Source: Bacteroidota bacterium (lineage in GTDB: Bacteria; Bacteroidota; Rhodothermia; Rhodothermales; JANQRZ01). From it: a DNA stretch of 62,446 nucleotides. Both the position numbers and the translations under genes were made by a program. Shown one piece after another: positions 2,709 to 50,507 of this stretch. Numbering within the stretch: position 1 is the first letter of the stretch; each line of letters starts with the position of its first letter. The stretch covers positions 1 through 62,446 of the forward strand of contig JBCDKT010000021.1 in assembly GCA_038746285.1 (NCBI GenBank). The letters are read 5' to 3'. Below the pieces are notes generated by a model. That model saw only the letters and a program-made list of their open reading frames with translations. It did no database searches and was not told where the DNA came from.

Positions 2709-4073
2709 TTGCTCTCCACGCCTATCGTCCCCCTCACCCCACACATCGCCGTCGTCGGCGGCGGCATCAGCGGCCTCGCTGCCGCGTGGCGGCTGCGCGA
2801 GCGCGGAGCAGCGGTCACGCTCTTCGAGGCACAGGGTGAGACCGGCGGGGTGATCCGCTCGGTCCACCGCGACGGGTTCCTCGTGGACGAGGGCCCGAAC
2901 ACGCTCGTGGCCCGGTCGCAACGCGTGGTGAACACCCTAGCGGCACTCGGACTGGACGAGCAGCAGGTCTGGGCGAGCGAGGCAGCGAAGGCGCGCTACG
3001 TGGTCCGCGGTGGCAGGCTCGTTCCGGTCCCGACGTCGCCGCGCAGCTTCGCCACGACCCCGCTGCTCTCGGCGCGGGCCAAGCTCCGCCTGCTCGCCGA
3101 GCCGTTCGTCCGAGCTGGCACCGACGAGGACGAGTCGCTGGCCTCGTTCGTCCGCCGCCGCCTCGGGGCCGAGGTGCTCGACTACGCGGTCAACCCGTTC
3201 GTGGCGGGCGTCTGGGCGGCCGCTCCGGAGCGGCTCGCGGTGCGCCACGCCTTCCCGGCCCTGCACGCGATGGAGCGCGAGCGTGGCTCGCTCGCGCGCG
3301 GCCTCGTCCACCGGATGCGTACCCGCCCCCCCGGACCACGCCTCTCGGCGCGCCCGTTCTCCTTCGCTGGCGGCGCGCAAGCCCTCCCCGACGCCTTCGC
3401 CCACCGCCTCGGCGATGCCGTCCGGTTGCAGACCTCAGTCACCGGGCTGGAGCGCACGGGCGAAGGCTGGACGTTGACGACCCGAGCGGACGGCGGGGAG
3501 CGCGAGGGCCGGTTCGACGGCGTCGTGTGGGCCGCCCCGCTGGACCGGCTGCCGGAGATTGAAGCCGGGCGGGCCGTGCCGCCGGTGTCCCACTCCGCCG
3601 TCTCAGTCCTCGCGCTCGGCTTCCGCCGCGCCGACGTGGCGCACCCCCTCGACGGGTTCGGCGTCCTCATCCCGGAGCGCGAGCCGTTCCGCCTCCTCGG
3701 CGCGCTGTTTTCCTCGACCCTCTTCTCGAACCGCGCACCCGAGGGCCACGTCCTCCTCACCTGCTTCGCCGGCGGCACCCGGCACGCGGCCGACGCGCTG
3801 CTCCCGACCGACGACCTCGTGGCGCTCGCCCTCCGCGACCTGGGCACGCTCCTCGGCGTGCGCGGCGATCCGGTGTTCGTCCACCGGAAGCGGTGGGACC
3901 GGGCGATCCCGCAGTACGACACCGACTACGACCGCGTACTCGGCACCCTCAGCCACCTCGAAGCTGCGAATCCCGGTCTGCACTTCGCGGGCAACACGCG
4001 GGGCGGCATCTCGGTGGGCGACGCGCTCGAGACCGGCCTCGAGGCCGCCGACCGGCTAGCAGGTGCCGGCTGA
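2709..4073 (+). CDS. hemG: Protoporphyrinogen oxidase (HemG/HemY type)
   Basis: FAD-dependent oxidase that converts protoporphyrinogen IX (or coproporphyrinogen III) to the porphyrin in haem synthesis. The N-terminal dinucleotide-binding fold reads VGGGISGLAAAWRLRERGAAVTLFE, followed by GGVIRS and the typical DEGPNTL. The C-terminus has the FAD-contacting NTRGGISVGDALETG. About 454 residues fits the family. No ATG lies in frame close upstream, so I chose the TTG at 2709, eighteen residues before the glycine motif; the start is uncertain because it is only about 10 bases from the promoter-like box. Its end overlaps the convergent gene by 18 bases. Confidence 0.88.
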   Translation: MLSTPIVPLTPHIAVVGGGISGLAAAWRLRERGAAVTLFEAQGETGGVIRSVHRDGFLVDEGPNTLVARSQRVVNTLAALGLDEQQVWASEAAKARYVVRGGRLVPVPTSPRSFATTPLLSARAKLRLLAEPFVRAGTDEDESLASFVRRRLGAEVLDYAVNPFVAGVWAAAPERLAVRHAFPALHAMERERGSLARGLVHRMRTRPPGPRLSARPFSFAGGAQALPDAFAHRLGDAVRLQTSVTGLERTGEGWTLTTRADGGEREGRFDGVVWAAPLDRLPEIEAGRAVPPVSHSAVSVLALGFRRADVAHPLDGFGVLIPEREPFRLLGALFSSTLFSNRAPEGHVLLTCFAGGTRHAADALLPTDDLVALALRDLGTLLGVRGDPVFVHRKRWDRAIPQYDTDYDRVLGTLSHLEAANPGLHFAGNTRGGISVGDALETGLEAADRLAGAG

Positions 4074-6323: not shown

Positions 6324-6463
6324 GGAGTGGGGAGAATGGATGGAAGAGCGGAAGGGGTCAGGCGCGGAAGAAAGGAAGAGGGCGTTGGCGCAGAGCACAA
6401 CGGCCTCGCTACCTTTCTCAGCTTTCCTGCGCTCTTCCGCTCTTCCGCTCTTCCGCTCTTCCG
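6324..6463 (+). repeat. Promoter-array element G (8-bp units, self-complementary arms)
   Basis: A purine-rich arm contains GGAAGAGCGGAAG (6342-6354). The core carries TTGGCGCAG and the box TACCTTTC (6410-6417). The other arm is four copies of CTCTTCCG (6432-6463). The 13-base segment of the first arm is exactly complementary to 6434-6446, so the element can fold. Both flanking genes are on the minus strand, so the box faces no start codon. Confidence 0.7.
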
Positions 6464-6473
6464 CTCCTGAAGC

Positions 6474-7673: not shown

Positions 7674-7825
7674 GATAACCCAAGTTGCGTGGTACAACTC
7701 CGAGAGGGCTACCACCCCGGACCGCAGACGGCAGACCGCCGGTTCCGGCACCCACGGCGGTCTGCCGTCCGTCGTCTGCGGTCCACCGGCACGGCGAGCG
7801 AATAGGGCACAACTTGGGTTAGATA
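7671..7825. mobile_element. MITE-like hairpin element with 7-bp direct repeats
   Basis: TTAGATA occurs at 7671-7677 and 7819-7825 as a direct repeat. Just inside are inverted ends ACCCAAGTTG (7678-7687) and CAACTTGGG (7810-7818). In the middle, a 22-base arm (7719-7740) pairs with 7756-7784 apart from a 7-base bulge. The arms contain GACGGCAGAC and GTCTGCCGTC, similar to the repeats around the four-helix-bundle gene at 21.6 kb. It has no coding capacity. Confidence 0.6.
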
Positions 7826-12546: not shown

Positions 12547-12709
12547 GAGGACAGAGGACAGAGGACAGAGGACAGAGGACAGAGGACAGAGGACAGAGGA
12601 CAGAAAGGTAGGCGCGGAGCGCGAGGGGGTCGGTAAATTTCTGGGCTTTTCTTCCCACTCCTCCCACTCCTCCCACTCCTCCCACTCCTCCCACTCCTCC
12701 CACTCCTCC
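12547..12709 (+). repeat. Promoter-array element B (8 x 7-bp, core, 6 x 9-bp)
   Basis: Eight perfect copies of GAGGACA (12547-12602) start right after the glycosyltransferase stop. The core carries GCGCGAGGGGGTCGG, the box TAAATTTC (12634-12641) and GGGCTTTTC. Six perfect copies of CACTCCTCC (12656-12709) end five bases before the pyrF start codon. The 7-mer is the motif of the inverted repeats at 21.56-22.03 kb. Confidence 0.8.
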
Positions 12710-20153: not shown

Positions 20154-21599
20154 ATGCCTGCCGTCCTCGAACCGCCGCCCGTCGCCTACCACGACGCCTC
20201 GGGCGACCTTCTCATCACGCTTCACGAGCCGGACGCGCGCGTCGAGCACGTCCCCGAGGCGGTCATCCAGGACCTCTGGCAGCACCTCCGCTTCCGCCAC
20301 GCCGACCTCCGCACGTCCGAGAGCGTCCCGGTCGAGGTCTGGCACCCCGGCGCGCTCAACACCGACGCCGGACCGGACTTCTCCGGGGCGCGGCTCCGCA
20401 TCGGCGACCTCGCGTGGTCGGGCGACGTGGAGGTACACCGCACCTCGGGCGAGTGGGTCCTGCACCGGCACGACGAGGACCCGCGCTACGACCGGGTCGT
20501 ACTCCACGTCACGCTCGTCGCGGACCGCCACACGGGCCGCCTGCGCCGCAGCGACGGCACGGTGCTTCCCGAGGTCGTCCTCTACCCGCGCCTCCAGGAC
20601 TCGCTCCGCGCCCTCCTCCACCGCTTCTACGCGACGCCGACGCGCGGCCTACCGTGCGCGGCCCACTGGCCGGACGCGCCCGAAGCGCTGCGCCGCGACC
20701 TGATCCGGGCCTACGGTCATGCGCGCCTCGCCGCCCGCCGCGACGCCCTCGCCGACGCGTTTCTGACTACCCCCGATCTCGACCAGCTCCTCTACGAGCG
20801 CACCCTCCGCGCCCTCGGCTACGCCAAGAACGCCGACCCGATGGAGCGCCTCGCCCGGCGCGTCCCGCTCCGCCGGCTCCGCACGCTCACCGACCTCCGC
20901 GACGCCGAGGCGCTGCTCTTCGGGGGGGCGGGGCTGCTGCCCGCCTCGGGGATCGAAGACCGGGAGACGGAGGCCTACGTGGACGGCCTGCGCGACCGCT
21001 TCGAGCGGCTGACGGCAGACGAGCCGGTCCGCCCGATGCTGGCGACGGCCTGGACCCGCGCCCGGCTCCGCGCGCCCAGCCTCCCGGCGCGTCGCATCGC
21101 CCAGGCCGCGGCGCTCGCTGCTCCCGGCGGCCTCCTTCACCGGGACCCTGTCGCCTACCTCGTCCACGCCCTGCAGTCCGAGCAGACGGCCGCCGCGCTC
21201 CGCCAAGCCCTCACCGGTGCCGCACCGTCCGCCTTCTGGACGACGCACGTCCGGCTCGACCGCCCCTGCAAACCGATGTCATCCTCCATCGGCCGGAGGC
21301 GGGCCGAGGCCATCCTCGTCAACGCCGTCTTCCCGGTCCTCCTGCTCTGGGCCGAGCAGACGGGCGACACGCCGCTCGAAGCCCGCGTGACGGATCTCTA
21401 CCGGCAGCTCCCCGCCGCCAGCGACGAGGTCACGCGCCACTACGAGCGCCTCGGCACGAAGCCCGCGAACGCGCTCGAAGCCCAGGGGCTGCACCAGCTC
21501 TACCGCACCCGCTGCGCCGATGGCCGCTGCCTGGCGTGCTCGGTCGGGCAGTGGGTGCTTTCAGAGGACGGCAGACGGAGAACAGAGGACGGAGGATAG
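20154..21599 (+). CDS. DUF2851 family protein
   Basis: A 481-residue protein of the Bacteroidota family DUF2851, recognised by NTDAGPDFSGARLRIGDL, WSGDVEVHRTSGEW, HDEDPRYDRVVLHVTLV and the C-terminal cysteine cluster CADGRCLACSVG. Function unknown; residues resembling a nuclease core (D, E-H) are present but I cannot prove it. The last dozen residues (SEDGRRRTEDGG) are encoded by the left inverted repeat of the next element, whose sequence also supplies the stop codon, so the native C-terminus has been replaced. Confidence 0.82.
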   Translation: MPAVLEPPPVAYHDASGDLLITLHEPDARVEHVPEAVIQDLWQHLRFRHADLRTSESVPVEVWHPGALNTDAGPDFSGARLRIGDLAWSGDVEVHRTSGEWVLHRHDEDPRYDRVVLHVTLVADRHTGRLRRSDGTVLPEVVLYPRLQDSLRALLHRFYATPTRGLPCAAHWPDAPEALRRDLIRAYGHARLAARRDALADAFLTTPDLDQLLYERTLRALGYAKNADPMERLARRVPLRRLRTLTDLRDAEALLFGGAGLLPASGIEDRETEAYVDGLRDRFERLTADEPVRPMLATAWTRARLRAPSLPARRIAQAAALAAPGGLLHRDPVAYLVHALQSEQTAAALRQALTGAAPSAFWTTHVRLDRPCKPMSSSIGRRRAEAILVNAVFPVLLLWAEQTGDTPLEARVTDLYRQLPAASDEVTRHYERLGTKPANALEAQGLHQLYRTRCADGRCLACSVGQWVLSEDGRRRTEDGG

Positions 21600-22034
21600 A
21601 TGATGCGCAAAGCACTGAGGCATTTTTCAGAGTTGAGGATGTACCGAGCGGCTTTTGATCTCCAACGGAGTGTCTTCGAGCTAACGAAGCAGTTCCCCCG
21701 AGAGGAGCGGTATGCGCTGACCGATCAGGTGCGTCGCTCGTCGCGCTCCGTGGGTGCCAAAATCGCCGAGGCGTGGCACAAGCGACGCTACAAGGCCCAC
21801 TTCGTCAGCAAGCTCTCCGACGCGGACGCCGAGCTCGCCGAGACCGAGCATTGGATACAGACCGCTCGGGACTGTGGCTACATCACAGCCGGCGAAGCTG
21901 CTGCTCTCGAAAGCCAAAGCCGGGGCGTGGGTCGGATGCTCGGAGCTGCCATGCGCGACGCCAGGAAATGGTGCCCGGCTCCGTAACTTGTTCAGCCTTC
22001 GTCTGTCTTCTGTCCTCCGTCCCCTGTCCTCTGA
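21560..22034 (+). mobile_element. Inverted-repeat cassette carrying a four-helix-bundle gene
   Basis: The left end reads TTCAGAGGACGGCAGACGGA (21560 on); the right end, read on the minus strand from 22034, is TTCAGAGGACAGGGGACGGA. The outer ten bases are identical and the next about 20 are similar (GAGGACGGAGGAC-type). The gene at 21600-21986 fills the inside. The GAGGACA/GAGGACG units equal those of the gene-less arrays at 12.55 and 50.47 kb. No target duplication is clear. Confidence 0.6.
21600..21986 (+). CDS. Four-helix-bundle protein, 23S rRNA IVP/S23 family
   Basis: A 128-residue protein of the family first found encoded inside 23S rRNA intervening sequences (TIGR02436, related to bAvd of diversity-generating elements). 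Family marks: MYRAAFDLQRSVFELTKQFPREERYALTDQVRRSSRSVGAKIAEAW, then KLSDADAELAETEHWI and GYITAGEAAALE. It forms a positively charged pentameric barrel in known members. There is no rRNA here: it lies between DUF2851 and an ABM-domain gene, its ATG follows the upstream stop TAG directly, and inverted repeats flank it. The biological role of such free-standing copies is unknown. Confidence 0.85.
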   Translation: MMRKALRHFSELRMYRAAFDLQRSVFELTKQFPREERYALTDQVRRSSRSVGAKIAEAWHKRRYKAHFVSKLSDADAELAETEHWIQTARDCGYITAGEAAALESQSRGVGRMLGAAMRDARKWCPAP

Positions 22035-22038
22035 ACCC

Positions 22039-22359
22039 GTGCTCATCCGCACCGTCCGCATGACCTTCCGCCCGGATGCCGTCGAGGACTTCCTGGCGAT
22101 GTTCGACGGGGTCGCGCCGCAGATCCGGGCCGTCCGTGGGTGCCGGTATCTCGAACTGTGGCGGGACGCGCGCTTCCCGAACATCCTCACCACCTACAGC
22201 CACTGGGAGAGCGCCGACGCGCTCGACGCCTACCGGCAGAGCGACCTCTTCCGCTCGACCTGGGCGACGACCAAGCAGTGGTTCGCCGCCCCGACGGTCG
22301 CGCACAGCCAGCACGTCCAGGCCGAACCGATTGAACCCGCGGCTACAGCGCCAGCTTGA
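22039..22359 (+). CDS. ABM/dabb-like small monooxygenase-fold protein
   Basis: A 106-residue protein with the ferredoxin-like antibiotic biosynthesis monooxygenase fold: VRMTFRPDAVEDFLAMFD, VRGCRYLELWRD, TTYSHWESADALDAYRQSDLF. A GTG at 22039 is chosen since it opens the first beta strand; it lies five bases after the right inverted repeat. Substrate unknown. The 3' end overlaps the convergent TonB receptor gene by 17 bases. Confidence 0.75.
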   Translation: MLIRTVRMTFRPDAVEDFLAMFDGVAPQIRAVRGCRYLELWRDARFPNILTTYSHWESADALDAYRQSDLFRSTWATTKQWFAAPTVAHSQHVQAEPIEPAATAPA

Positions 22360-46312: not shown

Positions 46313-46389
46313 GGCCGCCGGGTGGTGCCAGCCCTCGGGTGACCACATGGGGTCGCCCCTACGGGTAGGCGCGGCGTGCGACAGCGGGG

Positions 46390-46397
46390 TACCTTCT
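46390..46397 (+). promoter_or_regulatory. -7 box of the lipase gene, with short pyrimidine repeats
   Basis: TACCTTCT is followed by CTGTCCGCTGTCCTCCGTCT, a degenerate GTCCTCC array (complement of the GAGGAC unit), about 45 bases before the GTG start. Confidence 0.5.
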
Positions 46398-46441
46398 CTC
46401 TGTCCGCTGTCCTCCGTCTTCCGTCCTCTGCTCCCCGAACC

Positions 46442-47505: not shown

Positions 47506-48054
47506 ATGGACCTCGCCCCCGGCGTCCTCCTCGTGGCCGAGCCGGCCCTGCTCGACCCCAACTTCCGGCGGTCGGTCGTCCTGATCTGCGACCACAACGC
47601 CGACGGCTCGTTCGGGCTGATCCTCAACCGGCCGACCGAGTTCCGCCTACCCGACGTGCTCGACGAGCCAGTCGGGATGGAGCACCTGCTCTACTTCGGC
47701 GGGCCGGTGCAGACCGACACGCTGCACTACCTCCACCCTTACGCCGACGAGGTGGAGCACGCCGTCTCCGTCCTCGACGGCGTCGGCTGGGGCGGTCCGT
47801 TCGACGTGATCGTGGAGCAGGTCCGCAGCGGCGCGCTCGACGGCGACGCGCTCCGCTTCTTCGTCGGCTACGCTGGTTGGGGCGACGAGCAGCTCGCGGA
47901 GGAGGTCGGCGAGGGCAGTTGGGTGGTGCTCCCGGCCTCGGCCGCGCGGGTGTTCGAGGACGACCCGGCGGTGCTTTGGCGCGAGATCATGCGCGACCTC
48001 GGCGGCGAGTACGCGCTCCTCTCGAACTACCCGGACGACCCGCAGATGAATTAG
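47506..48054 (+). CDS. YqgE/AlgH family protein (DUF179)
   Basis: 182 residues, the conserved bacterial UPF0301 family: PGVLLVAEPALLDPNFRRSVVLICDHNADGSFGLILNRP, then YFGGPVQTDTLHYLH, FFVGYAGWGDEQLAEEVGEGSWVVLPA, LWREIMRDLGGEYALLSNYPDDPQ. Function not settled. ATG at 47506. A TACCTTCC box lies 29 bases upstream. Confidence 0.93.
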   Translation: MDLAPGVLLVAEPALLDPNFRRSVVLICDHNADGSFGLILNRPTEFRLPDVLDEPVGMEHLLYFGGPVQTDTLHYLHPYADEVEHAVSVLDGVGWGGPFDVIVEQVRSGALDGDALRFFVGYAGWGDEQLAEEVGEGSWVVLPASAARVFEDDPAVLWREIMRDLGGEYALLSNYPDDPQMN

Positions 48055-48110
48055 GCGGGGAAGAGCGAAGGACCGAACGAGCGGAAGATTTCGGAGGTCA
48101 TGGTCCCGCC

Positions 48111-48118
48111 TATCTTCC
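48111..48118 (+). promoter_or_regulatory. -7 box of the MscS-like gene
   Basis: TATCTTCC, followed by a pyrimidine-rich leader with CGCTCCTTCC and CGCTTCCGCTCC units, 37 bases before the GTG start. Confidence 0.5.
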
Positions 48119-48154
48119 CTGCTTTCGCTCCTTCCCGCTTCCGCTCCTACAAAC

Positions 48155-50459: not shown

Positions 50460-50507
50460 CAGCCGGAGGACGGAGGACGGAGGACGGAGGACGGAGGACG
50501 GAAATTA
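50460..50507 (-). repeat. Promoter-array element K (5 x 7-bp GGAGGAC)
   Basis: Read on the minus strand: box TAATTTCC (50507-50500), five copies of GTCCTCC (50499-50465), GGCTG, then the start codon of the cysteine desulfurase. The 7-mer is the same as in the cassette repeats at 21.6 kb. Confidence 0.78.

Follow-up and report, generated by a model that had tools for sequence, protein, structure and literature searches.

An IVP gene held between complementary tandem-repeat arms looks like one copy of a seemingly widespread mobile hairpin element

The stretch of DNA analysed here (the window; 62,446 nt, contig JBCDKT010000021.1 of assembly GCA_038746285.1, from a Bacteroidota bacterium of the order Rhodothermales) carries a gene of the 23S_rRNA_IVP family (PF05635, hereafter IVP) between a DUF2851 gene and an ABM monooxygenase-like gene, outside any 23S rRNA gene (Table 1). 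An inverted-repeat search placed this gene between two arms of 44 nt that are 77% complementary and 388 nt apart. The left arm matches itself at period 7 (0.65) and pairs with its own right arm with a score of 24, against at most 20 with the right flanks of the 10 other IVP genes of the genome; these arms are not a product of chance. The stop codon of DUF2851 (TAG, 21597-21599) lies within the left arm, which encodes the last ~12 residues of that protein (SEDGRRRTEDGG), and the alignment with the DUF2851 of a sister species reaches only residue 471 of 481. A preliminary description of this DNA had pointed to an IVP gene inside inverted repeats between protein genes, to an arm that supplies the C-terminus and stop codon of DUF2851, and to a design like that of 23S intervening sequences (IVSs) standing outside rRNA, and all three were borne out. 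The IVP also matches a second profile more weakly, that of bAvd (PF22296, 2.9e-11). Two of its relatives with solved structures, 2gsc and 2rld, have five chains each, consistent with the pentamer that we take to be the state of both the IVP family and Avd.

To distinguish genomes and loci, we number them with G and L, respectively; G000 is the genome that contains the window, and G001 and G002 are sister genomes, with G001 representing the sister species. G000 has 11 PF05635 genes, on 11 contigs, most of them flanked by arms of degenerate 7- to 8-nt tandem units, and in a matrix comparing the flanks of all these loci, the left and right arms of the same locus form the best pair in the row in 7 of the 11 cases. 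The arm unit varies from locus to locus, with GGACAGA in the window, GGCTGTT at L009, GTTTATG at L010, GGGCGAGT at L011, GTGGTCC at L014, an octad with TGATTGG at L017, and others elsewhere; for L018 and L012, the flank comparison gave no good second arm. Hence the arms that had been described as GAGGAC-type are so at the window locus, while every other IVP locus has its own unit, and the proposed search for the same arms at further IVP genes recovered the design but a new unit at each place. What recurs at IVP genes is the design and not the sequence of the arms. We rejected the idea that the IVP copies are pieces of rRNA, as 23S motifs are absent from the studied loci. No large-subunit rRNA, in which an IVS could be looked for, was recovered in this assembly.

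The same design extends across many phyla. Scanning 84,980 species genomes yielded 80 classic IVP loci, found in Bacteroidota, Planctomycetota, Acidobacteriota, Desulfobacterota, Chloroflexota, Gammaproteobacteria and others. When flanks of 260 nt were compared, with displaced pairs taken from the contigs of the loci themselves as controls and their 99th percentile as the threshold, arms were detected at 72% of 74 loci of this broad set, 50% of 42 loci of the order and 45% of the 11 loci of G000. The locus's own pair tops both its row and its column in the cross-locus comparison at 32 of the 74 loci of the broad set and 17 of 53 loci of the order, where ~0.5 would be expected in each. Over 78 armed loci, self-match reaches 0.574 at a shift of 7 and 0.544 at a shift of 14 (controls 0.262), with a period of 8 instead of 7 at some loci, and the left (5') arm contains more G than C at 74 of the 78 (P 1e-17). 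Whichever strand is read, a hairpin whose 5' arm is G-rich presents the same picture, so this polarity is a property of the hairpin and not of gene direction; a tie between polarity and gene orientation was therefore rejected. As a side observation, the IVP gene of L162 from Planctomycetota (IVP match 2860-3177) stands between extremely long, near-perfect arms of GTGGACG heptads, with an arm score of 156 against a control maximum of ~17.

Hairpins of this kind also occur on their own. Counting as bare those hairpins that lack an IVP gene, have a period of 7 or 8 and enclose a loop of <60 nt, we found 12 in the 315 kb of G000 on which its hairpin density is based and 0 in 400 kb of sequence from six genomes that lack IVP genes (P 5e-5). 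Their units match those of the G000 IVP arms (GGACAGA, GAGCGGAA, GGGCGAGT, TGATTGGG). The doubled GGACAGA occurs 97 times in G000, 5 times in G001, 7 times in G002 and 0 times in six others, and its reversed control 0 times in G000; GAGCGGAA occurs 76, 4 and 38 times in the three genomes, respectively, and 0 times in the others. The GGACAGA unit is thus a dispersed family; GGTTCGG showed no amplification on count. Three of the 12 bare hairpins lie in the window and are listed in Table 1, together with a single-sided array. A further one-sided array, of GGACGGA (50470-50498), belongs to the same unit family as the IVP arms and, like the listed one, has no inverted partner, and a lone C-rich arm (TCTGTCCGCTGTCCTCCGTCTTCCGTCCTC) at 46385-46425 directly precedes a GTG start.

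Table 1. Features of the IVP locus and related repeats in the window
Feature	Position	Strand	Remarks
DUF2851 gene (PF11013)	20154..21599	+	Upstream neighbour; profile match
Left (5', G-rich) arm	21560..21603	+	Degenerate GGACRGA-type heptads; inverted repeat
IVP gene, 128 aa	21600..21986	+	PF05635 (23S_rRNA_IVP) 2.1e-30, matched span 21600-21983
Right (3', C-rich) arm	21992..22035	+	Inverted repeat; ends 4 nt before the ABM GTG (22039)
ABM monooxygenase-like gene (PF03992)	22039..22359	+	Downstream neighbour; profile match; GTG start
Bare hairpin, octad GAGCGGAA units	6346..6466	.	IVP-free
Bare hairpin, heptad GACGGCA units	7714..7782	.	IVP-free
Bare hairpin, octad units	48052..48149	.	Occupies the whole space from stop codon (48054) to next start (48155)
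Single-sided GGACAGA tandem array	12549..12604	+	Unit as in the window IVP arms

Comparison with relatives supports the suggestion that the cassette is mobile. In the IVP tree, the window protein groups with L078 of G001 (support 96/72; 69% identity), and the place of this closest IVP differs between the two genomes: L078 lies between STAS and purA, a spacer occupied in G000 by a plain terminator instead of an IVP, while the G000 gene lies between DUF2851 and ABM. That latter spacer, which the preliminary description had suggested examining for an empty site, indeed lacks the IVP in both sisters, G001 having a heptad-like hairpin of other units and G002 a short hairpin only. The bare DUF2851|ABM hairpin of G001 opens with the same sequence as the arms of L078 (TTCCAGCGGGCA) and shares GGCAG-type units with them, indicating that one unit family exists there with and without the gene. 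At six further sites (L015, L013, L014, L016, L017 and L009), G001 has neither IVP nor arms: the neighbouring genes are two ABC permease genes with a TGATG overlap (L015), recJ and moeA with an ATGA-type overlap (L013), genes separated by 6, 9 and 11 nt (L014, L017 and L009, respectively) or genes that overlap (L016). Two sites, L010 and L013, are likewise bare in G002, which at the L015 site has a hairpin without IVP. These bare sites show that at most places the arms are present only together with the IVP, and that the unit starts at the stop codon and finishes near the next start. Some spacers that hold an IVP in G000 contain other repeats in the sisters: at L250, the L010 site of G001, a different dispersed repeat (TGTCATCCTGAGCGCAGCGAAG...GGGATGAC) fills the operon spacer, and L243 and L245 of G002 contain a second family of intergenic palindromes (GGGGCRCAGCRYGCYGTGCCCC type).

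Where both flanks are conserved between species (hemL, acrB and pheS-pheT), the two arms alter jointly. At hemL, the units are GGCTGTT in G000 and GGTTCGG in G002. The acrB site holds an IVP with AACGTTG arms in G014 and G054; in G024 and G033 it holds a bare hairpin made of other units and identical in these two genomes. The pheS-pheT site holds an IVP with CGAATTT arms in G024 and G047 and a bare CGTATTG hairpin in G014 and G054. Between EcsC and Der, G024 has an intact IVP and G014 and G054 have a decayed one, while in G033 a bare hairpin stands in its stead. Different IVP subfamilies also occupy the same spacer in different genomes (L089 versus L110/L116), which suggests that such spacers are hotspots.

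To account for these patterns, we propose that a dispersed element, of which the window locus is one copy, is built around a hairpin of degenerate tandem units of 7 or 8 nt, G-rich in the 5' arm and C-rich in the 3' arm. The IVP gene would fill the loop of the hairpin in some copies and be missing from others, and gene and arms would arrive jointly in tight intergenic spacers, often reaching from a stop codon to the next start. The element may move as a folded single strand, either DNA at the replication fork or RNA, using polymerase and joining enzymes of the host, with the pentameric IVP, a relative of bAvd that has no recognised catalytic motif, possibly binding its own hairpin and promoting copying or insertion. 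Strand slippage together with copying from arm to arm could then make the units drift, so that complementarity is kept while the sequence of the arms is erased. We regard it as probable that the element is mobile, a relative of the 23S IVSs living outside rRNA with an architecture like that of REPIN-RAYT systems; for the route of movement and the function of the IVP, we rely on inference. More tentatively, and with somewhat less conviction than for the individual element, one may envisage a very widespread class of transposase-free mobile elements whose ends are set by a 7- or 8-nt period and strand polarity and not by sequence, whose sole gene encodes a four-helix-bundle protein, and for which the 23S IVSs are one special landing place.

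Several observations weigh against this proposal. No catalytic protein was found in the element, in which only PF05635 and bAvd were matched, and target-site duplications and exact ends were unreadable because the nearest compared flanks are too diverged. Within the order, only about half of the loci passed the strict arm test. Random stretches of G012 and G014, both of which have IVP genes, contained no heptad tracts, so that an abundance of bare hairpins is not common to all genomes with an IVP. Finally, the close paralogs L011 and L016 (74% DNA identity) lie at unrelated sites, and their homology ends within the arms, indicating that the arms are not carried as fixed sequence; the idea of fixed terminal repeats moving between paralogs is accordingly unsupported.

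A different reading treats the locus as an RNA cassette of the 23S-IVS type, in which a stem formed by the arms in the operon mRNA is cut by RNase III and the IVP segment removed, so that the insertion is tolerated and the neighbours are regulated. The arms of the window copy do pair in the predicted RNA, in both the minimum-energy and the centroid fold (z -3.43), many copies lie within operons from stop to start, and the design is that of the Coxiella IVS, which RNase III cuts out in vitro (PMC4990558). However, G.U-compatible mismatches for the sense RNA are rarer than the reverse type over all armed loci (101 versus 153 in the mirror class; 18 versus 34 by locus, P 0.04); moreover, the cassette copies at hemL and pheS-pheT are antisense to both neighbours. 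Selection for sense-RNA pairing is thus unsupported, and the earlier suggestion that the cassette lives in mRNA stays a conjecture, as does processing by RNase III. The lean itself is towards A in the left arm against C in the right arm, which gives A.C on the sense strand and G.U on the antisense strand (153 to 101). We consider this reading rather unlikely.

We are equally doubtful that the hairpins came first, as independent intergenic repeats in whose loops IVP genes land, much as 23S IVSs sit at the tips of rRNA helices. The spacers in which one species has a bare hairpin where another has an IVP (L118, L241 of G002, acrB, pheS-pheT and EcsC|Der) and those that house unlike IVP subtypes would follow naturally from such a history, but most sites in the sister species are bare without any hairpin, the sampled IVP-free genomes have no bare hairpins, and where a hairpin does stand in an empty species its units are unlike the IVP arms. 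Insertion solely into pre-existing hairpins is contradicted by the bare sister sites, though it is possible at some sites. It is very improbable that the arms are simple slippage satellites that pair around IVP genes by coincidence. Their units do often form one-sided arrays, and heptad repeats are abundant in bacteria (PMC4679880), but this explanation is already contradicted by the arm polarity and by complementarity within a locus, which far exceeds that of the same-contig and cross-locus controls.

The mobile IVP and hairpin element that we favour bears on an old open question, the origin of the 23S intervening sequences, and on IVP/S23, which is among the common uncharacterised protein families of bacteria. 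One rule that holds across phyla, a hairpin of period 7 or 8 with a G-rich 5' arm and a unit private to the locus, joins dispersed IVP genes, rRNA inserts and intergenic heptad repeats. Searches of the open-access literature gave no account of heptad arms beside IVP genes, and the element looks like a seemingly widespread one that has not previously been described as such.

Among known systems, the 23S IVSs of Leptospira and Coxiella that contain an IVP/S23 open reading frame resemble the window element in having the IVP gene between arms that are complementary in RNA. The dispersed element differs from them in lying between protein genes, in its 7- or 8-nt tandem arms unique to each locus, in its many copies per genome and in its bare-hairpin forms. 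With Avd of diversity-generating retroelements, the window IVP shares a fold family, as the bAvd match indicates; no reverse transcriptase gene adjoins it, the genome at large and template or variable repeats not having been searched. Intergenic, lineage-specific 7-nt tandem repeats are known as TAACTGA of Beggiatoaceae (PMC4679880, where S23 and intervening sequences are unmentioned) and as the cyanobacterial STRR, but these are described as direct repeats, unlike the hairpin arms at IVP genes. Like transposons and their miniature inverted-repeat derivatives (MITEs), the element has full and gene-less copies with common terminal inverted repeats, and it changes place between related genomes, as seen for the window IVP and L078 and for the bare sites of G001; unlike them, it has no transposase, no target duplication was seen in flanks too diverged to place the ends exactly, and its terminal repeats are set by period and not by sequence. 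The closest likeness in architecture is to REPIN-RAYT systems (PMC3116915), with a gene adjoined by inverted copies of an intergenic hairpin that is dispersed in the genome, gene-less hairpins outnumbering gene-bearing ones, and hairpin families that are lineage-specific; here too, the hairpin at the IVP gene and the dispersed intergenic ones come from one family. In contrast to REPIN-RAYT, the IVP element has no RAYT/HUH transposase, as only PF05635 and bAvd were matched, its stems are degenerate tandem repeats, and there are up to 11 copies of the IVP gene per genome, some of which have moved between loci.
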